Virus record (IMG/VR): IMGVR_UViG_3300037189_007701
Location: 1 to 29,037 of that record
DNA from: a virus
DNA: 29,037 bases
Reading direction: 5' to 3' (one strand)
Part shown: piece after piece, positions 6,101-29,037 of the stretch
How the letters are laid out: each line of letters starts with the position of its first letter
How positions within the stretch are numbered: position 1 is the first letter of the stretch
Notes under the pieces: generated by a model
What the model was told of the DNA's origin: nothing
Database searches by the model: none
What the model saw: only the letters and a program-made list of their open reading frames with translations
Position numbers and translations under genes: made by a program

Positions 6101-9100
6101 CTCATTATAATAAATTAATTGAAAACACAGCAGTTACCACTGGCAATCAAGTGCCAGTCCAAGACCATTACTTAAAAGCACAAAGCGGAACCTTATTGCA
6201 ACATGATGCACCATTGGTGTATGCAATGACTTTCTTAAATGATCCCACTGTAAATTTTGTCAATGGACTGAATTTTGCGAGAAAAGAATATACAAAATTT
6301 AAAAACAGATTTTTAACGCTATGTACTACGATTAAAAATTTAGATTACTCTGATCCAGCGGCCAGCGTAGATACTATATTACAAAACATCAACGCGGTTA
6401 AAAATATCAGTTTTCCTTGGTTCTATTCGGACATGGTGCCACAAGGCAAAGAATACACCACAATTACATACACAGTATTGAACGTTCGACAAACCAATTA
6501 CGAAATTAATACTTTCTTTGACATTGCCAAACTAAGCAATCGGGCAGTTTTGGTTTACGTTAATAATGTACAGCAAAGTATTGGGACCGACTACGAATTT
6601 AGTACGTTGAACCCAACTATTATTTTCTTAAAATCATTGGCTATTAACGATGTAATAACAATACGTGATTATCCTAACACTGACGGTAACTACATTCCAG
6701 AAACTCCAACCAAGTTGGGTCTATATCCAAAATCGTTGCCTCAAGTGTATGTTGACACTACATATCAAACCTCCACAGAAGTATTGCGTGGCCACGACGG
6801 TAGTCTAACTCCTACCTTTGGCGACTTCCGTGACGATTTTTTATTGGAACTAGAATTAAGAATTTACAATAATATCAAATCCGACCATGACAAAAATCAA
6901 ATGGACATATTTGATGTGTTGCCTGGACGTTTCAGAACAACAGATTACAGCCTTGAAGAATACAACAAAATACTAAGTCAAAATTTCTTAACCTGGGTGG
7001 GCAATCATTCCATAGATTATATTTCAAATAAAACATACGATGTCAATAATGCTTGGACATGGAACTATAGTAGCTACGGCGATTCGGTTGACAATTCAAA
7101 ACTACAAGGATCCTGGCGTGCCATTTACAAATACTGGTACGACACAGATACTCCCAACTTAACTCCGTGGGAAATGCTAGGCTTTTTTGACCGCCCAGTC
7201 TGGTGGATTGACCGCTATGGCGTTGCTCCGTACACCAAAGGCAACTCATTACTATGGGAAGATCTTGAAGCAGGATATGTATGGAACGGTAGTAATGCAT
7301 TGGCCTATACAGACTCACGTTTTATCAGACCAAATCTAGTAGATTTTATCCCAGTTGATTCGGCTGGCAATTTATTAAATCCAGTCCAGATTCCATTGAC
7401 CAATATCGCAGCCTCTGGGCAGTTTAGCACAGCATACTCTGGTGCAGATTTTGCAGTAGGCCAACAAGGTCCCACAGAAACAGCCTGGCGCCGTAGTAGC
7501 GATTATGCCTACGCGGTACAACTAGCATTGGCATTAACAAAGCCTGCCACGTACTTTGCTACGCAATTAGATACAAGCAGATTCTTTAATAATAGTGTCA
7601 CCGGACAGTTTAGCAATATTGACAATCAAAAAATTGCTCCAAGTATTTTAACTGTCAATGGCAATGCTACGTCGGGCACAGTACAACGTACCAGTGGTTA
7701 TATCAATTGGATTGCAGACAGTATTAAGAATCTCGGTATTGATCCGGTTGCTAAAATTACAGAGTATTTTTCAAATTTGTCTGTTCAATTGAATTACAAA
7801 GTTGGCGGATTTACGGATACAAAAATACTTACAGTAACAGCAGAACAAACAACTCCTGGCTCAACTAGTTCCGGTGTTATTATCCCAGATTCCAATTATA
7901 ATGTTTACCTAAACAAGTCGGTGCCAGTGCGCACGGCGGTGTATAGTGCGGTCATTGTTGAAAAAACAACCACCGGCTTCTCAGTAACAGGCTACGATCC
8001 ATCAACGCCATTTTTTACTATTATCCCAAGTGTTGCTAATAACAATGCAGCATCGCTGTCGGTTAATGATGTTAGTATAAAACTATATCAAGAAAGCACA
8101 AACATAGCTCAAGTTATACCATACGGTACAGAATTTGCAACAATCCAACAGGTCACTGACTTCTTAATAAGCTACGAAAGATACCTAGTATCACAAGGTT
8201 TTGTGTTTACAACATTTGACAAAGATTTAAACATACAGCGTGATTGGACACTGAGTATTCGCGAGTTTTTATACTGGGTTCAGCAGGGCTGGTCAGCAGG
8301 CACTATCATTGTATTAAATCCGGTAGCAACAAAACTAAAACTAAACTCTGTTGGCGAAGTTGTTGACGAAATTACCAATATCACCAATGGCAGTAAACTG
8401 TTAGATCAAAATTTCTTATCAATTAAGAGCAACGATTTTACTATACTTCGTACAGAAAATGCACTGACTCAAAACACATTTGACGTTTCTACTTTAAGTG
8501 GAAAAATGATTACCTATGCAAAACTTAATTTAATACAATATGAACATGTATTGATATTCGACAATGTCGACGACTTTAACCATATTGTTTATATTCCAAG
8601 TCAAGGAACTCGCCAATTCAGATTAAAATTTTCCGGTTATAAAACAGGTGCTTGGACTGGTGCGTTAAGTGCACCTGGATTTATCTACAACAGTCCTACG
8701 ATCAATGAGTGGAATTCTAGCCTAGACTATAGACTCGGTGATATCGTTAAGTATAATAATTTCTATTATACTGCAACACAGGACATTGCAGCTAGCGAAA
8801 CCTTTAATAGTATTGTATGGACCCAGATACAAAAAGATGATATCCTGACTGGATTGTTGCCAAATTTTGGATTAAATGCAAGACAGTTTAACACTATCTA
8901 CGACATAGATAATCAACCAATCAATGAAAATTTACAAAACTATAGCGCCAGCTTAATCGGATTCCGTCAACGCCAATACTTGACAGACCTGGGCATTGGC
9001 ATCCCAACACAGACCAAGTTCTATCAGGGCTTTATCAAAGAAAAAGGCTCATTGAATGCTATCAACGCATTAACCAAAGCAACCTTTAATAATGTCAACG

Positions 9101-12100
9101 GTAACATCAACGTCTACGAAGAATGGGCATTTAGAACTGGATTATACGGCGGAATCAACAACAACACCTATAAAGAATTTGTATTAGATCAAAGTATTTT
9201 TACTACAAATCCTATTTCCTTCACATCCGGATCAGACTACGATGCCGGAAATATCATTGTAGTATTAAATGGTAATTCGACGTCAACCGACCCATTGACC
9301 GGAAACACTAATTCTAACATTTATACTGCTAGTAACTTATTATCCACATCAACAACCCTGTATACCAATCGAGTAAACGATGTTTACATTAGAGATATAC
9401 CTACAGCAGGATATGTAAACTTACAAGACATTGATTACACTATATTTGATATTGATAGTATCGCACAAACAACAATCCCAATTGAAAAAATTGGTGCCGG
9501 CGATAAGATTTGGTTAGCTAAAAATGAAGTCGATGAGTGGGAAATATTGCGAGCAACTGAAACGCAACTGGCGGCAACATCCTTAACCTATACGCTAGAT
9601 TCATATGGATTATTGACATTCAGTGGCCGTCACAACTTTGTTGCCAATGACATTATTGTGCTTAAAGATTTTGACACAGCATTTGATGGAATATACAAAG
9701 TTGAAAGTGTTACAAATTCTACCAGCATAGTTATAACTATTAGTTCAGCGAATCCGAAATTCGGACAAGTTAGTCCGCTACAAAAACTAATTAGAGCATT
9801 GACTATCACGGGCTCGGGCATAGTATATGGTCTGAACTCGGCCAGAGTTGACACGGTTACAGACCTGATCAACCAAACTCCGCCAAAGGGCGGTTGGACA
9901 GATCATGATCATGTTTGGGTCAATTCAACCGGCCAGGGCTGGGGTGTTTACACACATACTGTTCCGTGGCACAGTAATGCCACGACCATTATTAGTAACC
10001 GCAGCACAACCAATGCCAAATTTGGATCGGTGGTGCGCATCAACACCACAAACAATAACATCTATGTTGGCAATCCTGGCTCGGCCAATGTACAAGTATT
10101 TTCTAATACCGGTGCATACATTACATCCATAGCAAATGCACACGCTAGCTTTGGATCAGCTATTGCTACACAAGGAAATTTATTAGCAATTGGTGCACCC
10201 ACAGCAAGTGAGGTACACATATACATTGATAATGTTTATACACAAACTTTGGGCTCTGCTGGTGGTAACACAGTTGTTGTTAGCGAAGATCGTCAGTGGA
10301 TTTATTCTGGCAATGTTATCAGCAATCAAGTTAAAGCATACACCCCCGGTACAGTAACTTACTTAAATATTGGTAATTTGATTGTTTCTCCAACTCTGGC
10401 TATTGGTGATTACATCACACAATCAAATAGTGCAAATTATATTACCGCAAATGGTACGGTGGTTTATTCGTCGGTTGGCAACCTGATAGCACTGAGAGAT
10501 GTGGTTGGCACTTTTGTCTCTAATGTTGGCAACGTGCAGTTAGCTGGATTTGGCAATACTATGATTGCCAGGAATGGTGCATTGATAGCCAATGCTAACA
10601 TTACCAGCCGAACTACATCTATAAATTACTTATTAGCTGCTACTATCACCGGACCGGCAGACAGTATGTTTGGCACTGCTTTAGAAACCGATTCAATTGG
10701 GTCTAAACTGCTTATTTCGGCACCAAATGCTACTAATACCTATTCTCAAAACGGTAATGTTTATGTTTATACTCGATCTGGCACTACTATTACCTTAGCG
10801 CAAACATTGTCTAGCCAACACAAAAATCAATCAGCCAAATTTGGCGCAAGTCTGGCAACAGATAGCACAACGGCTAACTTATACGTGGGTGTTCCTGGAT
10901 CTTTAGCCTCGGGCAACTTCAACGGATTAGTAGAACGTTGGACTTTGTCTGGCAGCACTTATGTATTTGATCAAAGCATTTTCCACCCCAACAATGAAGT
11001 GGGTGCATTTGGTTCTAGTCTAAATGTGTCCGATGACGCAAAGTTATTGGCTGTGGGAAGTCAGGGATCTGCATCACAAGAAACAACAGTATTTGACAAT
11101 AGCTATACTACCATTGATGAATCAACAACTCAATTTGTTGATTATGTGATTAATAGTGGTGCTGTATATTTGTTTGAACCATTGGTTGATCCATTGGTTA
11201 CGAACACCAAAGGCAAATACATTTTCACACAACAACTTGAGGCGCAAGTTAGTAGCGGGGATCAATATGGTTATTCAATTGACTTGACCAGAAACATTAT
11301 TGTTGCCGGTGCCCCGGGTGCAAATTTGTCGGCAGGCCAAGTATTCCTGGCAAAAAATAACAATGCTTCTACTGCTTGGATACTGGCCAGACAACAACAG
11401 CCAAAAGTTGACATTGATAGCATTAGTCGAACCTTTATCTATAATAAATCAAACAACAATATGTTAGCCGCGCTTGACTTTATTGATCCTGCCAAAGGAA
11501 AAATATTGAATTCTGTGTCGCAGGATATTGATTATCAGTTAACCAAAGATCCAGCACTCTACAATCAAGGTAAAAAGACTGTGTCCGCAGACCTATACTG
11601 GGGTCCAGCACAGGTTGGACAGGTATGGTGGGATCTGAGCACTATACGTTACATAGACTACGAACAAGATGCACTAATCTATAGGCTTAACCATTGGGGT
11701 GAACGTTTCCCTGGTAGCAGTATTGATGTTTATCAGTGGGTAGAAAGTCGTGTATTGCCAAGTCAATACACTGGATCGGGCACTCCATTGTACGCAGATG
11801 ATAGTGCTTATAGTACCTATGGATATGTAGATACAAATCGTGCCGTACAGATAAAATATTATTTCTGGGTTAAGAATATTGATTCGGCTGCTACATCAGC
11901 TGGCAAGAACAATAGCATAGTTAGTATCACTAGCGCAATTGAAAATCCACAGACTCAGGGAATTCCCTACGTTGAAGTGTTAAGAAATGATACACTAACA
12001 ATGTATAACGTTAACAACTTGCTGGTTGGACAGAACAGCGTAGTTCACATCGGCACAACCAATGGAGAAACTAATCTAATACACAGCGAATATGCGTTGG

Positions 12101-14967
12101 TACAAGAAGGCAATCCGTACAGCACCATACCGGCTAGCATTTTACGTAAATTTGCTGATAGTTTGTCTGGCATAGATGTTGTAGGTAATCCTGTACCAGA
12201 TCCCGCACTAATACCAAGCCAACGATATGGCATTGATATACGTCCAAGACAAACCATGATCATGGATAGAACAACTGCACTATCTAACTACTTGACTTTG
12301 ATTAATCAATATCTAATCAACTACCCTGTAGTGGCTAGCAAGGTGTTAACTACATTAAACAGTAATGAGCCGGCGCCGGGTGTAGATTCCGGAGAATACG
12401 ATCTTGTTATTGACACAGTAGATCAATTAAATTACATCAACACCACTGACAAGCCAGCTGGTTACAAAGTATTAATTAATTCTGATATAACACAATTGGG
12501 TAAATGGTCAATTTATTCCTGGACTGGTTCTACTTGGATTCTTGCCACCCGCACAGATAATACAGCCTGGGTGCAAAACTATAAAACAAACTTGTATTGG
12601 GATTACGCTGACTATTACGACTACAGCGCATACGACCCAACACAAATAACAGAAATAACAGTGGCTAACCGTTTAGAGTTAGGCAAACTAACACTGGTGG
12701 CAGGTCAACACATTAAAGTATTAGACAACGGAAATAATCAATTTGAAGTTTATCTAGTAGACAGCACGCTTAATCTTTTTTTAGTTGGCATTCAAAACGG
12801 CACTATACAGATTAAAACTACTGCAATTCCAGGCAAAGAGCTACGTCAAATTTTACTGGCCATGCAGACTGAAATATTTGTTGATGATATTGCCAGTGAG
12901 TATAACATTATTTTCTTTGCCATGATCAAATATATTTTAACTGAGCAAAAAAATCTTGACTGGGTATTTAAAACCAGCTTCATTGGCGCCACACAACAGA
13001 TTCGTAAGTTAAGACAGTTTCCTGCTTACATTCCAGATAATCAAAACTTCTACTTGGACTATATCAATGAAGTTAAACCATATCGTACAGTGGTTCGAGA
13101 ATTTGTAGTTGATTACGTTGGCGACGATATTTTTGCCGGTGATGCAACTGACTTTGACTTGCCACCGTATTATGACGTCAGTCTTGCGATCTACCGTAGT
13201 CCAAATGGTAGCGTAAGCACAGATGCAGCAAAACTTAACACTGGCATTTATTCTCAATGGACTAATAATTACAAGTATCAAGTAACCAATATTATAGTAG
13301 AAACGTCCGGCACGGGTTATGTAACTCCACCACAAATTGTTATCACCGGAGGTGGTGGTACCGGAGCAACCGCATACTCTGTACTCAACGCCGCGGGCGG
13401 AGTAGCCTCGATTGTATTAACTGATCCGGGGTCGGGGTATACCAGTACGCCAACTGTGACTATTAACGGAACAGGTTCTGACGCAAGTGCAAGTGTGGTG
13501 TTACGCAACGTCTACGATAGCAACACCACAGGACATAACCTTGTCAGAAGCATTGAAACCAAAGTTAAATTTGATCGTGTAAACTATACCAATCCAAATA
13601 CATTCTTGTCATGGAGTACAGTTACCACGGCCAATGTTGGACAGACTATTGCGGCAGATACTATCATAAACATTGAAAACAACCTGTACAAGTTAGTTAC
13701 ACCATATGTCATTGATTCGGCGGTAACTTTTCCAATTGCCAATGTTACTCCAATTTCTATAGCGGACTTTAACAATGCCAATGATAGAATTGCAGCATAC
13801 TCCCCTGGCATCAATCTTAAAAACATTGGGGAAGGATTGGATTATCCGGGTATTCAAATTGATGGCAATACTTATGTTGGCACATACAACGACACCAATG
13901 TACAAAACTATTACACCAGTAATGTTGGTATCAATCCAAGTGATATTATCATTGACGGCGGCGCCTATGTTGATCGCTACAGTAGTCATGCACCGGAGGA
14001 ACTTGTTCCAGGACGTATGTATGATGCTTTAAACATTACAGTATATGATACTAATAATCTTGGCATCAGAATTTTTAATGATATGAATTTACAGCCTAGT
14101 TATTATAGAATTGCTGGCGCAAATACAACTGAATTGAGCGCAAATTTAAATCTATTAGACAGTAATGTTTACGTTATAAATGCAAGCGTGTTGCCAGAAC
14201 CCAATCCGTCTAATGCTGTTCCTGGCGTGGTATTCATCAACGGCGAAAAGATTACATATTATGTTCGCGATACTGTAAACAACCGTCTGGGACAGATACG
14301 TCGTAGTGTTGACGGAACCGGCGCCATGAATATACACCTGACAGGTACTCGTGTAATTGATTCTAGTATACAACAACAGATTCCGCGGAGTGTGGTTAAT
14401 CCGTTAACGCTGACAGCCAATACCGGCTTTAAGGTAACAGATACAACCTATGTCACTTTGGGATTAAACCTAACCGGTAATATCACTGGCAACATTGGTG
14501 ACATTATTCAACAGATTAATGCTAATACAAATTCCATAGTTGGAACCTTTAGACTATTGCAAACAGTAAGTAATGTAAAAGTCATTCCTGTTTCATTATT
14601 GTCTGGCACTATAACAGGATTAGGAGATGTGTTTGACAGCGCACTAGGATTTGATGTAACCGGCTTTGATAACACTATCAGCCCAATCTACATTCTAGAC
14701 CCAATTACCCAGGCTAACCTTGCCACAGGATCCTATGTGATTAGCCCATACGTTTTGGCTAACCCCACCGGCAATCCGCGCAAGATAAACATAAATGGAA
14801 CAATTTACCTGGAGCCGCAGACTCGGGTAGACAACGGCAACGTTTTGTACAGTCCAGGCGCCGGTCTGCCTAGTGATGGCACAGGCCTAATCAACAGCAC
14901 AACAACAGCAGCTGAATTCTTAAAAGCGTCAAGAAGCTTTAACGTGCCACCAGGAACTACACCATGA
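3190..14967 (+). CDS. Giant gp7-like baseplate/tail structural protein (3925 aa)
   Basis: This is a very large virion protein, placed where gp7-like wedge proteins follow gp6 in T4-like phages; T4 gp7 is 1032 residues, so this one is almost four times longer. The N-terminus (FLPPVFRTPTNQRFLGAT, then YVGRRFSPTYK, YQLEPSVVV and FVNYYNYYWLPNGP) recalls a family of marine myovirus baseplate proteins. Residues about 155-264 form a beta-rich domain with LARGGSYTFNINQPG and FWIQSSPGT motifs. Inserted modules include a GTTDFTSFGA unit (588-622), a carbohydrate-module-like unit (1838-1881), an FG-GAP-like propeller (about 2276-2724) and a GSGYT repeat (about 3369-3437). Conserved tail motifs are TPWEMLGFFDRPVWWIDRYG (about 1324-1343), FYLDYINEVKPYRT (about 3287-3300) and the C-terminal INGEKITYYV...RRSVDGTGA. 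AGGA at 3178-3181 is its ribosome site. The gp7 link is inferred from order and family resemblance; the virion role is more secure. Confidence 0.72.
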   Translation: MALSNTIEFLPPVFRTPTNQRFLGATVDQLFTDPVVIPMNGYVGRRFSPTYKINDNYIPELTGQRQNYQLEPSVVVKDNNKNILFNTGYIDLINSVANNNGYVDNHQRLFSAKSYSYDGHFDYDKFVNYYNYYWLPNGPAAVPIVTNEVPYTKSFTVTRNTTAGGYNFTGVGSQPNSQLTLARGGSYTFNINQPGIKFWIQSSPGTLGKDANLPTVSTRQVFGVKNNGIDQGVITFKVPLLDSQNFYTAMPIVATVDAAVTFKYTDIQNRLLSEFLAEFPTGLDGISNSVALQGSTFAFIDQLDNANDWTTPSIPAGSITTDTNSYAPGTIVSRTSRVHGWRVSLIPTVTVAGNDYVIQISSSIPATTKQKIFVRSGKTYASNQFWINNNLTYQPVPTITATKDYLYYQDSENPEFYGQIKLVNNSNSKVDVDKDILGQIGYTSPNGVIFTNGLKIYFDRYVTPASYANKEYYVEGVGRGISLTPVDLLIVPETFGLSIDTLPDYLTINRASRDCNPWTRSNRWFHKDVVLATANYNNTETDYGPNLPGRRPILEFDSNIQLFNFGRQAKASITYITREKSAQTLTLGGHYNILSVGTTDFTSFGAATNAVGVTFIATRNGTAQDGTGTTTTDAFNDYKGKVTASIDGYDLQNNDRIVFSQDYDTTILNQIFKVVIEKINNSNYITLVPTDDTPVLAGENLLVTSGDRQGETWRFDGTSWYQCQVKTSANQEPLFDLIDADGYSFSDITRYPDTTFAGSRLFGYARGTGTADPMLGFPLKYQNFNNIGDIAFYNYYDFQFDSIGASTPATFTYTDNLTTKTINLNSGFVAQSPSLEKTQYSNNWIETVEPSAQYQIFTKFYDGTVITINEAQHAFVQVDILPGTSATVPHLKVYLNNKLLTPGNDYDLTMYGVYAVVILSSAIVLEIGDKIDVAVFSSAVSQIAYYEVPKNLDYNPLNENFNIVTLGQLRTHYNKLIENTAVTTGNQVPVQDHYLKAQSGTLLQHDAPLVYAMTFLNDPTVNFVNGLNFARKEYTKFKNRFLTLCTTIKNLDYSDPAASVDTILQNINAVKNISFPWFYSDMVPQGKEYTTITYTVLNVRQTNYEINTFFDIAKLSNRAVLVYVNNVQQSIGTDYEFSTLNPTIIFLKSLAINDVITIRDYPNTDGNYIPETPTKLGLYPKSLPQVYVDTTYQTSTEVLRGHDGSLTPTFGDFRDDFLLELELRIYNNIKSDHDKNQMDIFDVLPGRFRTTDYSLEEYNKILSQNFLTWVGNHSIDYISNKTYDVNNAWTWNYSSYGDSVDNSKLQGSWRAIYKYWYDTDTPNLTPWEMLGFFDRPVWWIDRYGVAPYTKGNSLLWEDLEAGYVWNGSNALAYTDSRFIRPNLVDFIPVDSAGNLLNPVQIPLTNIAASGQFSTAYSGADFAVGQQGPTETAWRRSSDYAYAVQLALALTKPATYFATQLDTSRFFNNSVTGQFSNIDNQKIAPSILTVNGNATSGTVQRTSGYINWIADSIKNLGIDPVAKITEYFSNLSVQLNYKVGGFTDTKILTVTAEQTTPGSTSSGVIIPDSNYNVYLNKSVPVRTAVYSAVIVEKTTTGFSVTGYDPSTPFFTIIPSVANNNAASLSVNDVSIKLYQESTNIAQVIPYGTEFATIQQVTDFLISYERYLVSQGFVFTTFDKDLNIQRDWTLSIREFLYWVQQGWSAGTIIVLNPVATKLKLNSVGEVVDEITNITNGSKLLDQNFLSIKSNDFTILRTENALTQNTFDVSTLSGKMITYAKLNLIQYEHVLIFDNVDDFNHIVYIPSQGTRQFRLKFSGYKTGAWTGALSAPGFIYNSPTINEWNSSLDYRLGDIVKYNNFYYTATQDIAASETFNSIVWTQIQKDDILTGLLPNFGLNARQFNTIYDIDNQPINENLQNYSASLIGFRQRQYLTDLGIGIPTQTKFYQGFIKEKGSLNAINALTKATFNNVNGNINVYEEWAFRTGLYGGINNNTYKEFVLDQSIFTTNPISFTSGSDYDAGNIIVVLNGNSTSTDPLTGNTNSNIYTASNLLSTSTTLYTNRVNDVYIRDIPTAGYVNLQDIDYTIFDIDSIAQTTIPIEKIGAGDKIWLAKNEVDEWEILRATETQLAATSLTYTLDSYGLLTFSGRHNFVANDIIVLKDFDTAFDGIYKVESVTNSTSIVITISSANPKFGQVSPLQKLIRALTITGSGIVYGLNSARVDTVTDLINQTPPKGGWTDHDHVWVNSTGQGWGVYTHTVPWHSNATTIISNRSTTNAKFGSVVRINTTNNNIYVGNPGSANVQVFSNTGAYITSIANAHASFGSAIATQGNLLAIGAPTASEVHIYIDNVYTQTLGSAGGNTVVVSEDRQWIYSGNVISNQVKAYTPGTVTYLNIGNLIVSPTLAIGDYITQSNSANYITANGTVVYSSVGNLIALRDVVGTFVSNVGNVQLAGFGNTMIARNGALIANANITSRTTSINYLLAATITGPADSMFGTALETDSIGSKLLISAPNATNTYSQNGNVYVYTRSGTTITLAQTLSSQHKNQSAKFGASLATDSTTANLYVGVPGSLASGNFNGLVERWTLSGSTYVFDQSIFHPNNEVGAFGSSLNVSDDAKLLAVGSQGSASQETTVFDNSYTTIDESTTQFVDYVINSGAVYLFEPLVDPLVTNTKGKYIFTQQLEAQVSSGDQYGYSIDLTRNIIVAGAPGANLSAGQVFLAKNNNASTAWILARQQQPKVDIDSISRTFIYNKSNNNMLAALDFIDPAKGKILNSVSQDIDYQLTKDPALYNQGKKTVSADLYWGPAQVGQVWWDLSTIRYIDYEQDALIYRLNHWGERFPGSSIDVYQWVESRVLPSQYTGSGTPLYADDSAYSTYGYVDTNRAVQIKYYFWVKNIDSAATSAGKNNSIVSITSAIENPQTQGIPYVEVLRNDTLTMYNVNNLLVGQNSVVHIGTTNGETNLIHSEYALVQEGNPYSTIPASILRKFADSLSGIDVVGNPVPDPALIPSQRYGIDIRPRQTMIMDRTTALSNYLTLINQYLINYPVVASKVLTTLNSNEPAPGVDSGEYDLVIDTVDQLNYINTTDKPAGYKVLINSDITQLGKWSIYSWTGSTWILATRTDNTAWVQNYKTNLYWDYADYYDYSAYDPTQITEITVANRLELGKLTLVAGQHIKVLDNGNNQFEVYLVDSTLNLFLVGIQNGTIQIKTTAIPGKELRQILLAMQTEIFVDDIASEYNIIFFAMIKYILTEQKNLDWVFKTSFIGATQQIRKLRQFPAYIPDNQNFYLDYINEVKPYRTVVREFVVDYVGDDIFAGDATDFDLPPYYDVSLAIYRSPNGSVSTDAAKLNTGIYSQWTNNYKYQVTNIIVETSGTGYVTPPQIVITGGGGTGATAYSVLNAAGGVASIVLTDPGSGYTSTPTVTINGTGSDASASVVLRNVYDSNTTGHNLVRSIETKVKFDRVNYTNPNTFLSWSTVTTANVGQTIAADTIINIENNLYKLVTPYVIDSAVTFPIANVTPISIADFNNANDRIAAYSPGINLKNIGEGLDYPGIQIDGNTYVGTYNDTNVQNYYTSNVGINPSDIIIDGGAYVDRYSSHAPEELVPGRMYDALNITVYDTNNLGIRIFNDMNLQPSYYRIAGANTTELSANLNLLDSNVYVINASVLPEPNPSNAVPGVVFINGEKITYYVRDTVNNRLGQIRRSVDGTGAMNIHLTGTRVIDSSIQQQIPRSVVNPLTLTANTGFKVTDTTYVTLGLNLTGNITGNIGDIIQQINANTNSIVGTFRLLQTVSNVKVIPVSLLSGTITGLGDVFDSALGFDVTGFDNTISPIYILDPITQANLATGSYVISPYVLANPTGNPRKININGTIYLEPQTRVDNGNVLYSPGAGLPSDGTGLINSTTTAAEFLKASRSFNVPPGTTP
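4951..5055 (+). other. GTTDFT-type module inside the giant protein
   Basis: Residues about 588-622 of the 3925-residue protein read GGHYNILSVGTTDFTSFGA followed by an N-x-VG-x-x-F-x-A-T stretch and a Gly/Thr-rich tail. This short module recurs in many unrelated phage tail proteins, usually as a mobile beta unit. Its function is unknown. Recognition is from memory of the motif, not from a search. Confidence 0.5.
8701..8830 (+). other. Carbohydrate-binding-like (CBM5/12-style) unit inside the giant protein
   Basis: Residues about 1838-1881 contain W-N-S-S-x-x-Y-R-x-G-D-I-V-K-Y-N-N-F-Y-Y-T-A followed, after a spacer, by VWTQI. The pattern W..y..GD.V.y.g..Y.a....W resembles the small chitin/cellulose-binding CBM5/12 fold, in which exposed aromatics stack on sugar rings. 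It may place a glycan-binding patch on the baseplate. The match is short and the assignment tentative. Confidence 0.4.
10015..11361 (+). repeat. FG-GAP-like beta-propeller repeats inside the giant protein
   Basis: Residues about 2276-2724 hold six units of the form [A/S/Q]-[F/Y]-G-x-[S/A]-[V/I/L] followed about 12-20 residues later by a V/I-G-x-P/Q-G-like turn and a V-x-V/L-[F/Y/W] strand. Units begin near 10015, 10141, 10660, 10831, 10999 and 11257, for example AKFGSVVRI...YVGNPGSANVQVF and DQYGYSIDL...VAGAPGANLSAGQVF. A seventh, degenerate blade may lie between the second and third (SEDRQWIYSGNVISNQVKAY), giving the seven blades of integrin-alpha propellers. Such repeats commonly support cell-surface or protein adhesion. 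Repeat boundaries were set by eye. Confidence 0.55.
13297..13500 (+). repeat. GSGYT-type tandem beta repeat in the giant protein
   Basis: Two tandem units of about 32 residues share the pattern [T/P]-GxGY-x-[T/S]-x-P-x-[V/I]-x-I-x-G-x-G: first SGTGYVTPPQIVITGGGGTG, then PGSGYTSTPTVTINGTGSDA, at about residues 3370-3437. Units of this type are frequent in phage tail and fibre proteins and likely form a short beta-prism or solenoid segment. No specific ligand is known. Confidence 0.5.
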
Positions 14968-21939: not shown

Positions 21940-22836
21940 ATGCCAACAGTAAGCTCGGGCGCAGTAATTTATGGTTCAGACTACAACACGATACAAGCAT
22001 TAGTGACACAGGTCCTAGGATCTGGCACGCCGTTTGGACCCGGAACAGCCAGTCCCGATTACGGATACAATCAAACTTTGCAATCCAGCTTGGTCAATGT
22101 GGGCCAAGTAATTACCGGACAACAATGGCAACTTTTGGCCGCTGACGTTAACACAATTTACACACACCAAATTGGTACTGCATGGCCCGGTTACGCCAGC
22201 CAAATTTCAAATCAATCCAGTGGAAAACTTATAACTGCTGCAGATTACAATGCTGTATTCAATGCCATGACACCATTGGTCAACACCCGTCTTACAGTGG
22301 CACCCACTCAATTGGCCACGGTCACCGCTGGCACTAGCACATACTCGCCCAGCTGGGGCGGAGGCGCAGCAGGAATAACGAATTCGGGCAGTATCACATT
22401 TGCCAGTGCCGCCGCCTTGCGTTATTTTTTCAACCAGGGTGGAAGTATCAATTTTGCAGGCTTTGGACCAAGTTCAACTGCTACCAATCAAGACTCAAAC
22501 TGGTCCATTGCCTTGACGGCATTTAGATCCAGTATTAATAGTAACAATTTTACCAGTTTGAGTGGCACACCTTTCAACGTGTATCGGGCATTCAATGGAT
22601 CCAGTCCTGCAGGATATACCACCAGCTTTGTCAAGTTGACTGCTACCGTAAGTGGCGGAACTATTTCTTGGTCAGTCATCTATGATGATGAACACACCAA
22701 TGCATTTTTTGATACTGTCACTGGTGGGGTAGGATATGGGGTAACTGTTTCTACAGCCACCGGCGCCTTTTCTGGAACTGCTTATACTTCAGCCAGCATA
22801 ACCAATTCTTGGACAATTGGTACATTTGTCTACTAA
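21940..22836 (+). CDS. Tail/virion structural protein with FFN-GG type domain (298 aa)
   Basis: The product is probably a late virion protein. The N-terminal half holds three related helical units, IYGSDYNTIQALVTQVLG, ITGQQWQLLAADVNTIYT and ITAADYNAVFNAMTPLVN, each with an aromatic-x-x-[I/L/V] core. The C-terminal half (about 145-298) reads ITFASAAALRYFFNQGGSIN, then a W-x-x-x-L-T segment and repeated strands ending SWTIGTFVY, a pattern I know from marine phage tail proteins. Function is otherwise unknown. AGGA at 21929-21932 is 7 bases from the ATG, and no separate promoter is seen in the 17-base gap, so it is likely co-transcribed with fibre C. It is the last virion-type gene before the modification cassette. 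Confidence 0.6.
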   Translation: MPTVSSGAVIYGSDYNTIQALVTQVLGSGTPFGPGTASPDYGYNQTLQSSLVNVGQVITGQQWQLLAADVNTIYTHQIGTAWPGYASQISNQSSGKLITAADYNAVFNAMTPLVNTRLTVAPTQLATVTAGTSTYSPSWGGGAAGITNSGSITFASAAALRYFFNQGGSINFAGFGPSSTATNQDSNWSIALTAFRSSINSNNFTSLSGTPFNVYRAFNGSSPAGYTTSFVKLTATVSGGTISWSVIYDDEHTNAFFDTVTGGVGYGVTVSTATGAFSGTAYTSASITNSWTIGTFVY

Positions 22837-22896: not shown

Positions 22897-23247
22897 ATGG
22901 ATGTACGTTTAACGCAAGCACTTGACTTATCCAAATTTAGATATACATTATTTTTAGAAAAGCGCAGGCTACAAGAAAAGCTACGAGCCGACTTGACCTT
23001 TTCGGTCAACGGTGGACAATTTTATATTGATCGCAATTTTATTGTGTTCTTAAATCTCCTGGTCCCCGAAGAAGGAACCATGTCTGCTACTATCCTAGAT
23101 GACAATTTAACTCCAATCTACATTGATGATCTTGCTAAATTACAAAAAACTGTACTAGACATTTACACACGCACAGTCAACCAATACCAACTTGACTTTG
23201 ATGCGCTTAGAAAAAAACGAAAACCTGCGGCAATAGTAGATCTATGA
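22897..23247 (+). CDS. Small conserved-type phage protein of unknown function (116 aa)
   Basis: I recall similar short proteins from marine T4-like phages but know no function. The sequence opens with a basic helical stretch (KFRYTLFLEKRRLQEKLRADL, about residues 13-33). A strand motif TFSVNGGQFYIDRNFIVFLN (about 34-53) follows, then DDNLTPIYIDDLAKLQKTV and a charged tail with LRKKRKPAAIVDL. No transmembrane segment or signal peptide is visible. GAGGA at 22886-22890 lies six bases from the ATG. It is the first gene of the downstream cassette, and its stop overlaps the next start (ATGA), so it is translationally coupled to the first glycosyltransferase. Confidence 0.6.
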   Translation: MDVRLTQALDLSKFRYTLFLEKRRLQEKLRADLTFSVNGGQFYIDRNFIVFLNLLVPEEGTMSATILDDNLTPIYIDDLAKLQKTVLDIYTRTVNQYQLDFDALRKKRKPAAIVDL

Positions 23248-24176
23248 CACAAGGTTGTTTGATATTTGCACACGACGGAACCATTGACTATGGTAGCCAG
23301 GCAGTCTTGGCGGCACGATTGGTTATAAAACATCTTGGTATGCCTGTTAGTTTGGTAACAGATAAAGACACAATTAAAAATATCAACAAGAACTTTAAAA
23401 AAACACCATTTGATCAAATAATAGAAATACCAGCACCCGAATCTAAAAATACGAGACTGCTAACTGATCACGCCGCGATAGTATCCAATTTAGCTGCCAG
23501 ACTGGCCATAGAGCAATATGGTTTGCCCGCAGATCAATTGCCAATGAAACCAGTTAAAGAAGTTGTGTCCTTTATCAATGACAGTAGAGTACTTGCATAT
23601 GATCTTACCCCATATGATCGCACTTTGGTAATCGATTCAGACTATTTGATTTTTAGCGATCATTTAAATCGTTATTGGGATTGGGCACAAGATTTCTTAA
23701 TCTGTCCCGGCATGCTGTACATACAAGAAAACAATATCGGTCCTAAGGATTTTCAAATTAATCCATACACAATTAATCAGCTCTGGGCTACTACTTTTAT
23801 GTTTTCTAAAACAGCAGATACTAAAATATTTTTTAACTTGCTAAAATACATACAAGAAGAATATGAATACTTTGCGGCCTTGTATAATTTTGATCCAGGT
23901 CAATATCGCAATGACTTTGCCTTTAGCGTAGCATGTCATATCATTGGTGGTCACGGAGTAGACAAGTGGCACGGCGAACTTCCTATACCACTGATGTTGA
24001 CGGATGCAGATCGTATAGTAGATATCAAATCCACTGGCGAAATTGTTTTTCTATTAGGCGATACAGCACAGCACGGAGATTATCTACTGTCCAAGAGCTA
24101 CCAACAAGATATACATCTTATGAATAAACGGGATATACTTGCTAATCTTGATAAACTAATGGAACTTGCTGAATGA
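23244..24176 (+). CDS. GT-A/GT8-like glycosyltransferase, copy 1 (310 aa)
   Basis: This is probably a nucleotide-sugar-dependent glycosyltransferase acting in the cytoplasm; no membrane segment is seen. An N-terminal Rossmann-like strand (GCLIFAHDG), VSLVTDKDT and YDRTLVIDSDYLIFSD lead to D131-S-D133, the likely metal- and sugar-nucleotide-binding DxD of GT-A folds. A later FAFSVACHIIGGHG segment resembles the part of GT8-like enzymes that holds the acceptor site. Sugar donor and acceptor are unknown. The next gene has a related layout and may be a diverged copy with different specificity. The start overlaps the preceding stop by ATGA and has no clear ribosome site, so it depends on coupling. 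Confidence 0.6.
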   Translation: MTQGCLIFAHDGTIDYGSQAVLAARLVIKHLGMPVSLVTDKDTIKNINKNFKKTPFDQIIEIPAPESKNTRLLTDHAAIVSNLAARLAIEQYGLPADQLPMKPVKEVVSFINDSRVLAYDLTPYDRTLVIDSDYLIFSDHLNRYWDWAQDFLICPGMLYIQENNIGPKDFQINPYTINQLWATTFMFSKTADTKIFFNLLKYIQEEYEYFAALYNFDPGQYRNDFAFSVACHIIGGHGVDKWHGELPIPLMLTDADRIVDIKSTGEIVFLLGDTAQHGDYLLSKSYQQDIHLMNKRDILANLDKLMELAE

Positions 24177-25030
24177 GTCGCGGCTACTTATTGTTTGCAC
24201 TAAATGCCAACGAGGATGGAAAAAGACAATATTCCAAGTTGGCCTATGCTTGTGCATTGAGTATTCGAGCAACACAACTCGCAGGTTATGACAATGTATC
24301 TGTAGTTACAAATGATCCACAGGCATTTGCTGATTACAAAAACGTGTTCGACAATATTATAGAATACTCTGGTCCAAGGGGAATGGATGCAAGATCTAGG
24401 GCACTAGATTATGCTCCGTATGATGAAACAGTATTACTCGACGCAGACATGTTGTTCTTAAAACCCATGGATCATTATTGGGACATGTTAAAAGATAGAG
24501 ACTTGTTCATAACAACTAGTCCACAAACATACAAAGGCAATACCTTTAAATACGGATTTTATCGTCTGGTAATGGAAAAACATTCTTGGCCTGATGTATA
24601 CAATGCTTGGACCTACTTTAAACCAAGATCTACAACAGCTATAGAGTTTTTTGATCTAGTTAAGTTTATAACCGACAATCCAAGACAATATATCAATATG
24701 TTTTTGTCTGATACTTTATATACAACTGTTCCCACAGACGAAGCATTTGCTATGGCTTTGTGTATTTTAGATCTTACAGAGTATGTTTGCCCAAGCGGAT
24801 GGGACTTCCCAAGAATAACACACATGAAGCCAGCAGTACAACAATGGAAAGAAAGCGTAGCAGATTGGCCAGACAAAATTAGATTTTCTTTAGCTGACAA
24901 TTTAGAAATTAAACTCGGGGTGTGGTCACAAGCAGAACTATTACACTATGTTAAAAAAGAACTAATGACGCCAGCAATAATTGCACAGTTAGAAAAACAA
25001 TATGACGCAAGACTTTTATCTTCTATATAA
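24173..25030 (+). CDS. GT-A/GT8-like glycosyltransferase, copy 2 (285 aa)
   Basis: This is a probable cytoplasmic glycosyltransferase of the GT-A type. It has RGYLLFALNANEDGKRQYSK, then SIRATQLAGYDNVSVVTNDP and, at residues 87-96, VLLDADMLFL. D90-A-D92 is the expected DxD that binds the divalent metal and the donor diphosphate. SDTLYTTVPTDEAFAMALCI (about 183-202) resembles the helix with an acidic residue seen near the active site of GT8-like proteins. The layout parallels the preceding gene, but the sequences are clearly diverged. The start overlaps the preceding stop (ATGA), and its own end overlaps the following gene by 29 bases. Donor and acceptor are unknown. Confidence 0.65.
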   Translation: MSRGYLLFALNANEDGKRQYSKLAYACALSIRATQLAGYDNVSVVTNDPQAFADYKNVFDNIIEYSGPRGMDARSRALDYAPYDETVLLDADMLFLKPMDHYWDMLKDRDLFITTSPQTYKGNTFKYGFYRLVMEKHSWPDVYNAWTYFKPRSTTAIEFFDLVKFITDNPRQYINMFLSDTLYTTVPTDEAFAMALCILDLTEYVCPSGWDFPRITHMKPAVQQWKESVADWPDKIRFSLADNLEIKLGVWSQAELLHYVKKELMTPAIIAQLEKQYDARLLSSI

Positions 25031-25556
25031 TCTAGAATCTAGAGTTCCGCACACTATAAGTGGAACTCCAATAACTTTGGTACCTGAAGGTATGGCGACC
25101 TGCCGGGTAAAGTTTAACCTTGGTGAAGATTTTGTATTAGCTAAAAAATCTTTATTTCATTATGCAGTTATAGTTAGTAAAGGTTATGCAGAATTTCATA
25201 GCAGATGGAAAACATCAGAATACAAACGATATGCTATACCCGAAGGTATACTAGAAGATCTCGACTATAAAATGTCGTTTGTCTCGGATCTTGGTATTAA
25301 ATATTCTATAATAGACCAACAACTGACTTTAAATTTTGATCTGGCTAATTTAACTTCAGATCAGCGCAACGCTTTTAGAACATCTATCAATGCCAAAAAT
25401 GGAAAGTACACAGTATATGTAACACGCTACCGAGACCCTGCAGCATTGTTAGAAAAATTTGATATAGATTTATACAAGTTAAGTAAAGTAAAACAGTATT
25501 CAACAGCGTTGTCTGTTGACGAACCTGTAAGCATATGGACAACAAAAACACAATGA
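25002..25556 (+). CDS. Unknown protein (184 aa) in the modification cassette
   Basis: I do not recognise a family. The sequence appears as mixed alpha/beta: DFYLLYNLESRVPHTI at the start, then TCRVKFNLGEDFVLAKKSLF, an EFHSRWKTSEYKRYAIPEGI stretch (about 67-86) and a C-terminal KYTVYVTRYRDPAALLEKF segment. No transmembrane segment or signal peptide is visible. The ATG at 25002 lies inside the end of the preceding glycosyltransferase, overlapping by 29 bases, and no strong ribosome site stands before it. Its stop overlaps the ATG of a 29-codon gene (ATGA). Location between two transferase genes suggests a role in the same process, which is inference only. Confidence 0.55.
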   Translation: MTQDFYLLYNLESRVPHTISGTPITLVPEGMATCRVKFNLGEDFVLAKKSLFHYAVIVSKGYAEFHSRWKTSEYKRYAIPEGILEDLDYKMSFVSDLGIKYSIIDQQLTLNFDLANLTSDQRNAFRTSINAKNGKYTVYVTRYRDPAALLEKFDIDLYKLSKVKQYSTALSVDEPVSIWTTKTQ

Positions 25557-25642
25557 ATATTTTTAAACGAATCAAACAGTATTTCGCATATCGCAAGAGA
25601 TTAAAAGAGCTACGTAAAAGAGATCCATTTACATATAAATGA
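25553..25642 (+). CDS. 29-residue basic microprotein
   Basis: A 29-codon frame begins in the stop of the preceding gene (ATGA at 25553) and ends in the start of the carbamoyltransferase gene (ATGA at 25639). Its product reads MNIFKRIKQYFAYRKRLKEL followed by RKRDPFTYK: eleven Lys/Arg against two acidic residues, in a pattern that suits an amphipathic helix. I recall similar short products in marine phages, but this was not checked. Double coupling with no intergenic base argues that it is translated. A membrane-surface, nucleic-acid or protein-binding role is possible, and so is a pure coupling bridge. Confidence 0.55.
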   Translation: MNIFKRIKQYFAYRKRLKELRKRDPFTYK

Positions 25643-27114
25643 ATATACTTGGAATATCTGCCGGATTTCATGACGCCGCTGCTACAGTAATCGACCAACG
25701 AGGGGAAATACTTTTTGCTGGTCACAGTGAGCGTTATAGCCGTATTAAAAATGATCCTGACATTCACGTAGATATGCTTCGAGAGTGTGCCGAGCATCGC
25801 ATCGACCAAATTGCATATTATGAAACTCCGTGGCGGAAACAATTACGACAACTTTACAGTGGACAAGGTATTGAATGGAACAAATTAACTACCCAACAGA
25901 TTTTAAAAAAGCAACTGCAAGGATTTTTTAGTAAAGTCCATGTGAGTACTTATAGTCATCACCTGAGTCATGCAGCTGCTGGATTCCAAACTAGTACATT
26001 TAAACGTGCCACAGTTGTTGTAATTGATGCCATTGGAGAATGGGACACCATAAGCATATGGGGTGCTCACTATGTCAACGGACGTGCCGAATATCACAGA
26101 TTATGGTCGCAAAAATATCCACATTCAATCGGGTTATTCTACACAGCAATGACACAACAAGTGGGCTTAAAGCCCATGGAGGATGAATACATCCTGATGG
26201 GCATGTCTGCGTATGGAAGTAAGCAGGCCAGCACTTTAATGAAAATGCAACTGATAGACGATGAGTGGGACATGACTTTCAAGGAAAATTTACATATAGG
26301 TACAACTTGGGATTGGGGATACCACTTTGATGGAACAGATATTGCTGCCTCAACTCAGAGTTTATGTGAAAATTTGATATATAATGTAATGCGCCGCGCA
26401 AAAGACTTTGAGTGGAGCAGAAATTTGATTTATCAGGGCGGTGTTGCCCTTAATTGTTTAGCTAATAGAAATCTTGGTGATTATTTTGAAAAAATTTGGA
26501 TCATGCCTAATCCTGGTGACGCTGGTAGTAGCCTCGGTGCTGCCGCTCTCGCTTACGGCGGACCAATTAACTTCAAACACGCATACCTTGGTTATGACAT
26601 TGGCGGTCCGTACCCTACAAATGCCATCCTTGATAGTTTACTCAGCGATAGAATCGCTGGAGTTGCTAGCGGTAGAGCAGAATTTGGACCAAGGGCCCTC
26701 GGCAATAGAAGTTTACTCGCCGATCCACGAGGATCGGATATAAAAGATCTTGTTAACAAGATCAAACAGCGTCAACAATTTCGTCCTTTTGCTCCTGTTA
26801 TATTAGAAGAGCATGCCAGTGATTATTTTGTCATGCCCAAGGGATTTGACACAAGTCCTTACATGCAAACAGTTGGAATCTGCAAGTATCCAAAACAATT
26901 CCCTGCAATAATACATCACGATGGTACAAGCCGAGTGCAAACTGTACCTAAAAACAATTCAGGCATACGAGACCTATTGGAAAAATGGTATGTATTAACT
27001 GACTGCCCAATGTTGTTGAATACCAGCTTGAATGTCAAAGGTGAGCCAATGGTTAATAATATAGAGGATGCAAAACGTTTTGAAATGCTGTATAATATCA
27101 AGGTACACTCATGA
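25639..27114 (+). CDS. NodU/TobZ-type carbamoyltransferase (491 aa)
   Basis: Family members transfer a carbamoyl group from carbamoyl phosphate, via an adenylated intermediate, to hydroxyl groups of sugars, antibiotics or Nod factors. The N-terminal ASKHA-like domain shows GISAGFHDAAATVI (residues 5-18) and H107-H108-L-S-H111-AAAGF, whose histidines bind the catalytic metal in TobZ. GGVALNCLANRNL (267-279) and PNPGDAGSSLGAAALAYGG follow. The C-terminal YrdC-like domain carries GRAEFGPRALGNRSLL (345-360), QFRPFAPVILEE and LNTSLNVKGEPMV. Key motifs are present, so it should be active. At 491 residues it is somewhat short, with a trimmed C-terminus. Some viral homologues are reported to carbamoylate 5-hydroxymethylcytosine; glycan carbamoylation is equally possible here. 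ATGA overlaps link it on both sides. Confidence 0.85.
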   Translation: MNILGISAGFHDAAATVIDQRGEILFAGHSERYSRIKNDPDIHVDMLRECAEHRIDQIAYYETPWRKQLRQLYSGQGIEWNKLTTQQILKKQLQGFFSKVHVSTYSHHLSHAAAGFQTSTFKRATVVVIDAIGEWDTISIWGAHYVNGRAEYHRLWSQKYPHSIGLFYTAMTQQVGLKPMEDEYILMGMSAYGSKQASTLMKMQLIDDEWDMTFKENLHIGTTWDWGYHFDGTDIAASTQSLCENLIYNVMRRAKDFEWSRNLIYQGGVALNCLANRNLGDYFEKIWIMPNPGDAGSSLGAAALAYGGPINFKHAYLGYDIGGPYPTNAILDSLLSDRIAGVASGRAEFGPRALGNRSLLADPRGSDIKDLVNKIKQRQQFRPFAPVILEEHASDYFVMPKGFDTSPYMQTVGICKYPKQFPAIIHHDGTSRVQTVPKNNSGIRDLLEKWYVLTDCPMLLNTSLNVKGEPMVNNIEDAKRFEMLYNIKVHS

Positions 27115-28019
27115 AAAAAGATCAATTAACTATTTCTGAATTAGACTGTATTTTCATCAGTTATGACGAATCTAATGCTGAAGCCAATTGGGCAGACTTA
27201 CTTACCAAGTGCATGTGGGCCGAACGTGTACACGGAGTCAAAGGATCAGACGAATGTCATAAAGCAGCCAGTTACAAAAGCAATACAGATTGGTTTGTTA
27301 CAGTAGACGCAGATAACATTGTTGATCCTGAGTTCTTTGATCAAGTGATCGATGTACCAGAGGGTGCATTAGCATTTAGCTGGCCTGGTGTAAACATCAT
27401 CAATGGATTACAATATGGCAATGGTAGTCTTAAAGTCTGGCGTAAAGACTTTGTTATGAATATGAAAACCCACGAAGCCGCAGACAAAGATGATGGGCAA
27501 GTCGACTTCTGTTGGGAAGATGGTTATCGTCCCATGGTAGAAAGTTACTCAACTACATATCCTAATGCCAGTCCTTATCAAGCATGGCGAGCTGGGTTCC
27601 GCGAAGGCGTCAAGATGAGTTTGGTAGATGGTGTATTGCCAGAAGATCCGGCGCCGGCAAAACTACTATGGCACAACCTACACAGACTTAAAGTATGGGC
27701 AAGCATCGGAAGTCATGTTCCAAATGGATTGTGGGCCATGCTAGGTGCCCGCCACGGCTGCTATAAAACAAATTGCACCAATTGGAATTACGTTGACGTC
27801 CGCGACTTTGACTGCTTAAAAGAAATATGGGAAGAAGTTAAACATTGTGATTTAACAGAAGAACTCAATCGTTATGAGGCCTTGCTTGAACGAGAGTACG
27901 GCCTAAAGGTGACAACGCTAAATGCTAGTGCCAGCCAGTTTGTAGTTGAAACATTTAAAGAACAATACAAACAAGCAGTAGAACAGATCACTTGGACGAT
28001 GAAACGCAATGCTATTTGA
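27111..28019 (+). CDS. Phage glycosyltransferase-like protein, DxD type (302 aa)
   Basis: This is a probable GT-A-fold transferase. Residues about 14-20 (FISYDES) and a VHGVKGSDECHKAA block (about 43-56) precede FVTVDADNIVDPEFF, with D66-A-D68 as the likely metal/donor-binding DxD. Downstream AFSWPGVNIINGLQYGNGSL and YQAWRAGFREGVKMS fit donor or acceptor pocket segments. Length is normal for a phage GT. The following gene is a colinear paralogue sharing FISY-x-E-x-NA-x-ANW, HGV-x-G and FRE-x-VK motifs. No membrane segment is seen. AAGG at 27100-27103 lies 7 bases from the ATG, which overlaps the carbamoyltransferase stop (ATGA). Substrate unknown. Confidence 0.6.
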   Translation: MKKDQLTISELDCIFISYDESNAEANWADLLTKCMWAERVHGVKGSDECHKAASYKSNTDWFVTVDADNIVDPEFFDQVIDVPEGALAFSWPGVNIINGLQYGNGSLKVWRKDFVMNMKTHEAADKDDGQVDFCWEDGYRPMVESYSTTYPNASPYQAWRAGFREGVKMSLVDGVLPEDPAPAKLLWHNLHRLKVWASIGSHVPNGLWAMLGARHGCYKTNCTNWNYVDVRDFDCLKEIWEEVKHCDLTEELNRYEALLEREYGLKVTTLNASASQFVVETFKEQYKQAVEQITWTMKRNAI

Positions 28020-28695
28020 TATATTTTTTATATCATATCAAGAGCCCAATGCTGACGCCAATTGGGAATCTCTTAGAGATCGTTTTCCGTACGCTAGACG
28101 CTTACACGGTGTCACTGGTTTGCATAAAGCACATCGTATGGCAGCCAAATTGGTTGCTACAGATTATTTTTGGGTGGTAGACGGTGACAGCACTATCGTA
28201 GAAGATTTTAATTTTGTCTCTCCTGTGATTATGGACCAATATAGTAAGGACAAGATTGAAAATGTTGTTTATGTGTATAGAGCACGTAATCCTGTAAATG
28301 ATTTGGCCTACGGATATGGTGGAGTTAAACTATTACCAAAGCTAGCGACCATGAACATGGCCTACGGAAATATTGATATGACTACCAGTATCAGCGAACA
28401 CTTTTATCCAGTGGATCAGATAGCAAGTGTGACTAATTTTAACACAGATCCTTTTAACTCTTGGAAAAGTGCCTTTAGAGAATGCGTTAAATTAAGCAGC
28501 AAAGTGATAGATAAACAAAATGATACAGATACAGAAACTAGATTAGAAGTCTGGTGTACACAAGGCACTGATCCAGATGTACTGCGTGGGGCACAAGCAG
28601 GTAGAGATTATGGCACCGCCAATCGTGGCAACATCGATGCACTCAAATTGATCAATGATTTTGCCTGGCTTAAGGAACGATTCGATGAGCAATGA
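28009..28695 (+). CDS. Paralogous glycosyltransferase-like protein (228 aa)
   Basis: It is a shorter paralogue of the preceding gene. FFISYQEPNADANWESL (about 6-22), RRLHGVTGLHKAHRMAA (about 32-48) and WVVDGDSTI align in order with the neighbour; D58-G-D60 replaces its D-A-D. Later, FNSWKSAFRECVKLS, TRLEVWCTQGTD and GAQAGRDYGTAN also match in order, so about 70 residues of the neighbour's middle and its C-terminal tail are missing. A probable cytoplasmic transferase, perhaps partnering the neighbour as a heterodimer or adding a second sugar; both ideas are inference. The start overlaps the previous gene by 11 bases and the ribosome site is weak. Its end overlaps the next start by 11 bases. 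Confidence 0.55.
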   Translation: MLFDIFFISYQEPNADANWESLRDRFPYARRLHGVTGLHKAHRMAAKLVATDYFWVVDGDSTIVEDFNFVSPVIMDQYSKDKIENVVYVYRARNPVNDLAYGYGGVKLLPKLATMNMAYGNIDMTTSISEHFYPVDQIASVTNFNTDPFNSWKSAFRECVKLSSKVIDKQNDTDTETRLEVWCTQGTDPDVLRGAQAGRDYGTANRGNIDALKLINDFAWLKERFDEQ

Positions 28696-29037
28696 ACAGC
28701 GTATACAGATACTCAAAGACAAACGAGACCTGATCAATAAGGTTAGTCCTAGTTTCTGCACGGCCAAATGGCTACAAACAACGCTGATGTTACAAAATGG
28801 ATATAACCATAGTTGCCATCATCCTAGTCCACACAAAATCCCTTTAGAAGAACTTGCGGCAGACCCCGAAGCACTTTTTAACAGTCAACATAAAAAACAA
28901 CAGCGTCAACTGATGCTTGTAGGAGAAAGACCCCAGGAGTGTGACTACTGTTGGAATATAGAAGACCTTGACACAGAATATTTCAGCGACAGGCACTACA
29001 AAACCGCCGACGATTGGGCCTGGGATAGATTTGATGA
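28685..29037 (+). CDS. Start of a radical SAM/twitch-type phage protein (partial, 117 aa)
   Basis: An open frame runs from ATG 28685 to the end of the window without a stop, so only the N-terminus is present. AAGGA at 28672-28676 gives a good ribosome site, 8 bases from the ATG. The sequence contains SPSFCTAKWLQTTLMLQNG, NHSCHHPSPHKIPLEEL and GERPQECDYCWNIEDL, with Cys25, Cys44, Cys86 and Cys89. This layout recalls the N-terminus of phage proteins annotated as twitch-domain radical SAM, where such cysteines could bind an auxiliary iron-sulfur cluster. The radical SAM CxxxCxxC core would lie downstream, outside the window. The family link is from memory. Placement at the end of a transferase cassette suggests a modification role. 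Confidence 0.6.
   Translation, partial: MSNEQRIQILKDKRDLINKVSPSFCTAKWLQTTLMLQNGYNHSCHHPSPHKIPLEELAADPEALFNSQHKKQQRQLMLVGERPQECDYCWNIEDLDTEYFSDRHYKTADDWAWDRFD

Follow-up and report, generated by a model that had tools for sequence, protein, structure and literature searches.

The window analysed here is the whole stretch of 29,037 nucleotides of the IMG/VR virus record IMGVR_UViG_3300037189_007701 (positions 1 to 29,037); its last part, which follows a fibre locus, contains nine reading frames on the + strand, here called A to I. Our analysis is centred on two of these, the microprotein gene E and the carbamoyltransferase gene F, which form a unit that travels together among phages, and on the relation of this unit to the glycosyltransferase genes that surround it. 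The inspection of the reading frames and of the sequence has confirmed the gene count and the junctions given in an earlier note on this DNA: five junctions are of the ATGA type (at 23244, 24173, 25553, 25639 and 27111), and the other three are overlaps of 11-29 bases (C/D, 29 bases; G/H, 11; H/I, 11). The same genes recur with tight junctions in related contigs, which argues that the arrangement is not a matter of chance. The related loci, cited below by L numbers, were retrieved by conserved peptides, with a resulting bias to close relatives, and the loci within one scan are related; many of the contigs are fragments, and gene starts were called mechanically.

Gene F (25639..27114, 491 residues) matches both PF02543 (Carbam_trans_N, 1.4e-35) and PF16861 (Carbam_trans_C, 2e-48) above the cut-offs, and it carries the motifs HHxSHA, DAIGE, DEYILMG, GGVALN, FGPRALGNRS, RPFAP and LNTSLN, distributed over both domains. 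Its sequence also matches TobZ, GdmN and the novobiocin enzyme. Judged by these domains and active-site motifs, F, in which the earlier note had seen a carbamoyltransferase, is an O-carbamoyltransferase of the NodU/TobZ type, with a Kae1-like N-terminal domain and a YrdC-like C-terminal domain. The same two domains and catalytic motifs are found in TobZ, GdmN, the novobiocin O-carbamoyltransferases and the NodU family, with matches to 1e-48; compared with the solved chains of the TobZ type (576-702 residues), F is shorter, has a valine at the position equivalent to W408 and is encoded alongside E. The Nol-like carbamoyltransferases of cyanophages and pelagiphages (phrog_1601) belong to the same broad phage family, with about 29-35% identity to F in the best-covered deposited phage genomes; no E was found beside the phrog_1601-type enzyme in the three genomes inspected (C48C1, Mosig and S-CAM8), and a closer enzyme (50% identity), together with an E-like reading frame, is present in the single-cell record AG-345-D19. 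A cyanophage paper (PMC9146016) places its carbamoyltransferase in pyrimidine synthesis, an assignment that would merit a second look if that enzyme belongs to the Nol/NodU type, which is common in cyanophages.

Gene E (25553..25642) encodes a microprotein of 29 residues, MNIFKRIKQYFAYRKRLKELRKRDPFTYK, from an unnamed family that is tied to carbamoyltransferases and whose members range from 29 to 50 residues. The C-terminus of these proteins is a conserved tail, DPF[I/T]YK, in which D, P and Y are invariant in the aligned sequences; the N-terminal part contains tryptophan or tyrosine, and the protein is strongly basic (about +9). E matches no Pfam, PHROG or NCBIfam family, seven diverse E proteins likewise match no Pfam family, the E profile has no credible match in the PDB, and no cultured-phage relative was found among 50,697 phage records, a search that the low-complexity filter may have weakened. 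The ratio of nonsynonymous to synonymous substitution rates (dN/dS) is about 0.19, with the strongest constraint in the C-terminal half; this purifying selection on the amino acids argues that E is a genuine gene. An in-plane membrane helix of the classic kind was considered for E and set aside, since the helical moment is suggestive at best, with z 0.56 for the first 18 residues and 1.3-1.7 for the part that precedes the last 17.

The association of E with carbamoyltransferases has been followed in both directions. A scan with E alone has yielded 84 loci, 78 of which have a carbamoyltransferase gene on the strand of E, 0-1.75 kb downstream; among the exceptions, L128 and L134 carry the enzyme elsewhere on the same contig, and L088, L106 and L239 have E without a carbamoyltransferase in the record, the completeness of these three records not being established. 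From the side of the enzyme, we have pooled all phage loci of the scans with F, E and G, i.e. 130 distinct carbamoyltransferases: E is located at most 1.8 kb upstream of 127 of them (125 detected by hidden Markov model (HMM), with L253 and L154 added on inspection), the remaining three being L017, L052 and L069. Of 126 cases, 61 have a four-base ATGA overlap between the two genes; in about half of the loci they are separated by other genes or sequence, and no fusion with a carbamoyltransferase occurs among the E reading frames. In the enzyme tree, the E-bearing carbamoyltransferases form one clade (support 100/99) with a few members without E, so that E looks ancestral there and lost in some; the long-branched C48C1 enzyme could not be placed with confidence. 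In one group of loci (L052, L053, L062, L069 and L072), a protein of 92 residues replaces E directly upstream of the carbamoyltransferase. As E accompanies the enzyme in nearly all of the related phages examined, it is a probable working partner of it; our literature search has found no description of a phage carbamoyltransferase with a small protein, a primase or a radical SAM protein.

A second genomic setting has been found, where some E loci encode the N-terminal carbamoyltransferase domain alone, with no trace of the C-terminal domain. Scans with two of these enzymes as queries have retrieved 107 loci, with 102 complete proteins (312-343 residues) and the C-terminal domain in none; a primase is encoded upstream in 105, a DnaB-like helicase downstream in 100, and E is present in 105. 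The retention of E by these shortened enzymes argues that E tracks the N-terminal domain in both of these settings. In L254, such an N-domain-only enzyme occupies the E-F slot of a fibre cassette. A scan with the primase alone, which provides a sample unbiased for E and carbamoyltransferase, contains 63 complete primase-helicase intervals: by HMM, both genes are present in 52, neither in nine and the carbamoyltransferase alone in two, but the two apparent exceptions (L395 and L446) do have E on inspection, which gives 54 intervals with both genes, nine with neither and none with a single one. The co-occurrence has a Fisher p of 4e-11, a value that ignores kinship, and the primase tree needs at least four gains or losses. 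The N-domain-only homologues of L280-L386 and L392-L471 represent a large group of uncultured phages, in which E follows the primase; the primase-helicase slot sometimes holds a full-length carbamoyltransferase instead.

A similar layout with a different small protein occurs in bacteria. DUF5989 (PF19451), of about 50 residues, is above the cut-off in 46 of 200 sampled genomes, and it neighbours a carbamoyltransferase of ~612 residues in all of the 20 bacterial loci inspected (L210-L229), being located immediately upstream in 16. Like E, DUF5989 is very small, is found beside a NodU/TobZ-type carbamoyltransferase, usually immediately upstream, and has PFIY near its C-terminus; unlike E, which ends in DPFIYK, it ends in APFIYTLF and contains a hydrophobic run that looks like a transmembrane segment. 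The assignment of E to DUF5989 is not supported: a search with PF19451 has no match in the window, and the profile-profile alignment covers five columns, PFIY, with a probability of 20%. The C-terminal match of the two proteins is above that of shuffled sequences and their N-terminal similarity is not (p 0.36); the PFIY tail is all that they have in common beyond chance, and a common descent of the two is conceivable. No paper that names DUF5989 was found in our literature search. In the sxt cluster, the short genes sxtJ and sxtK lie beside the carbamoyltransferase gene sxtI and are functionally uncharacterised (PMC2885083, PMC2679770); on these descriptions alone, SxtK beside SxtI resembles the E-F pair in size and position.

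The genes that surround the pair include four putative glycosyltransferases. Genes B (23244..24176, 310 residues) and C (24173..25030, 285 residues) are paralogues, and the earlier note had seen GT8-like transferases in both. The profile of C matches glycogenin (GT8) with an E-value of 2e-5, and its AlphaFold2 model (predicted local distance difference test 91.9) has its best Foldseek matches with UGGT and glycogenin (E-value 3.5e-8); C is thus assigned as GT8/GT24-like, with a predicted GT-A fold and a DxD motif at residues 90-92. The match of the B profile to glycogenin is marginal (0.05), and with its invariant DxD (D131, D133) B is taken as GT8-like by the same marginal standard. Genes G (27111..28019, 302 residues, with a DAD motif) and H (28009..28695, 228 residues, with a DGD motif) have been described as two paralogous DxD transferases; the paralogy and the motifs hold, and the GT-A/GT2 fold of G is weakly matched (Foldseek E-value 7e-5, template modelling score only about 0.3; weak Pfam GT2 matches in four of 21 family members). 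G is therefore probably a GT-A/GT2-like enzyme, and H is a putative glycosyltransferase through its paralogy to G alone. No cultured-phage relatives of B, C, G or H were found among the 50,697 phage records. Genes A (22897..23247, 116 residues), the first after the fibre genes, and D (25002..25556, 184 residues), weakly conserved in sequence but kept in position, match no family in the profile-library searches. Gene I (28685..29037) is open at the end of the contig, so that the window holds only its N-terminus; the contig L002 (94% identical) continues it for about 900 bases, and the L002 version (97% identical over the shared part) matches NF033640, N_Twi_rSAM (6e-88, 295.6 bits against a cut-off of 170). 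Judged from L002, I is a twitch-domain radical SAM protein, in agreement with the radical-SAM-like start that had been noticed.

According to a scan based on G, combined with an HMM map, most loci have the fibre gene followed by A, B, C, D, G and H, in this order, with D undetected in one subgroup; where enough of the upstream sequence is available, the module mostly adjoins fibre genes, typically after a homologue of the fibre-locus protein that precedes it here (21940..22836, +, 298 residues). A-B-C-D-G-H is thus a conserved, fibre-linked glycosyltransferase module, and the earlier note was right to place glycosyltransferases and a carbamoyltransferase next to a fibre locus. The position of the E-F pair is not constant: it follows D in the window, in L081/L276 and in L243, it follows H in about twenty loci, and it is absent from others. 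Almost all of the 80 loci of the F-based scan have no A-D, G or H around the carbamoyltransferase; the E-F pair there comes after series of twitch-domain radical SAM paralogues (303 proteins, one cluster), in neighbourhoods that also hold SGNH-hydrolase-like, aminotransferase and epimerase-like genes, and the radical SAM genes vary in presence. The mobile position of E-F, and the frequent occurrence of the module without it, indicate that three parts make up the cassette: the glycosyltransferase module, the E-F unit and a radical SAM gene that is not constant.

Several side observations concern the same neighbourhoods. In L003-L080, arrays of up to about six twitch-domain radical SAM paralogues upstream of the carbamoyltransferase are followed by a conserved protein of ~360 residues (cluster f5), with no Pfam family. 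Large proteins of about 530-1400 residues, with a C-terminal part similar to H and apparently repeated glycosyltransferase-like domains, occur at L019:14029-15861 and in its relatives (cluster f6). Upstream of the cassette, the window encodes a baseplate wedge protein, tail-fibre proteins and a giant virion protein of 3,925 residues (3190-14967), the first half of which matches phrog_10938, a separate stretch matching the head closure protein Hc2.

We propose, with about even confidence, that the cassette is a composite in which the fibre-linked module A-B-C-D-G-H received the two-gene E-F unit, a twitch-domain radical SAM gene then following. The YrdC-like domain of F would convert carbamoyl phosphate and ATP to carbamoyl-adenylate, as in TobZ, and the Kae1-like domain would hand the carbamoyl group to a hydroxyl; E would be a small partner subunit, with its DPFIYK tail bound to the N-terminal domain of F and its N-terminal part, which is basic and contains tryptophan or tyrosine, in contact with membrane or nucleic acid, which would position the enzyme. 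The acceptor would be a sugar hydroxyl on the glycan built by B, C, G and H. Several observations weigh against this proposal: the pair often occurs in a replication operon, where nothing supports a glycan acceptor outside the cassette of the window; the signs that the N-terminal part of E is amphipathic are no more than suggestive and change with the segment chosen; and a few enzymes of the E clade lack E (L017 and the L052/L053/L062/L069/L072 group), so that E is not strictly essential. Furthermore, in the replication slot E directly follows the primase, at a distance to the carbamoyltransferase that varies to about 1.8 kb, which makes a primase-related role for E conceivable, but E is absent there whenever the carbamoyltransferase is absent.

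The proposal has to be weighed against the view, already in the earlier note, that all nine genes form one coupled pathway, building and carbamoyl-capping a single glycan on the virion or the host surface. The tight translational coupling in the window, the recurrence of the full A to I set in L081 and the proximity of the module to fibre genes speak for this view; we consider it rather unlikely, given that E-F follows D in few loci and H in most others, is missing from many modules and is widespread without them, with radical SAM genes that come and go. The coupling claim thus stands for A-B-C-D-G-H as a unit and fails for the full set: when scattered occurrence of the genes was looked for, well over 100 phage loci had the carbamoyltransferase with no A-D, G or H, and the module frequently lacked the carbamoyltransferase. 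That E is a coupling or leader peptide that tunes downstream translation, with no function as a protein, seems very improbable: the frequent ATGA overlap with the F-type gene would fit, but intervening genes or sequence are as common, and it is the amino acids and not the bases that are conserved (proportion of synonymous differences, pS, 0.77; of nonsynonymous differences, pN, 0.21; pN/pS 0.13 in the C-terminal half).

There is also a small chance, in our estimation, that E-F modifies nucleic acid, with F carbamoylating a hydroxymethylated base or nucleotide and the basic E aiding the binding of DNA or of the replisome; DNA bases were among the acceptors suggested before. A precedent exists, since a viral-metagenome carbamoyltransferase identified by MetaGPA, likewise a phage-type PF02543/PF16861 enzyme, makes 5-carbamoyloxymethylcytosine from 5-hydroxymethylcytosine (PMC8670742), and E with a carbamoyltransferase, often as the N-terminal domain only, lies between primase and helicase in more than 100 loci; the charge of E points in the same direction. 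The signature of the published enzyme is not found in the clade of F: the DNA-modifying enzymes have L, C and T at the TobZ positions W408, G421 and R423 (PMC8670742), whereas F has V, G and R and its clade has V/I/A, G and R in 132 of 132 sequences, the equivalent positions being placed through the conserved spacing of W..GR.EFGPRALGNR. The ThyA homologue near the published enzyme is of the deoxycytidine monophosphate hydroxymethylase type; those near the carbamoyltransferases of the relatives have asparagine, not aspartate, at position 177 (the deoxyuridine monophosphate type) in 36 of 36 cases, and none occurs in the window, so that no source of hydroxymethylcytosine is seen. We have therefore rejected the published route to a modified base. 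In the same paper, the carbamoyltransferases of contigs without modification have glycosyltransferase genes, among others, as neighbours (PMC8670742), and the pair in the window sits within a glycosyltransferase cassette; taken with the signature and the ThyA type, this makes a sugar hydroxyl the probable acceptor here. A bolder, doubtful extension is that E is an obligate subunit which enables the Kae1-like domain, even alone, in replication operons to transfer a carbamoyl or related acyl group to a nucleic acid, a nucleotide or a replisome-linked target, and that the pair was redeployed for glycans beside fibre genes.

An enzyme family with members in antibiotic synthesis, nodulation-factor synthesis and DNA modification is, in phages, nearly always accompanied by a protein of 29 to 50 residues that the family libraries do not describe, and bacteria have the same layout with a different tiny protein. 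The N-domain-only forms raise the question of what role a carbamoyltransferase domain plays in phage replication without its activating domain. Should E prove to be a subunit, a testable role would follow for the small reading frames next to such enzymes, i.e. DUF5989 and possibly SxtK.

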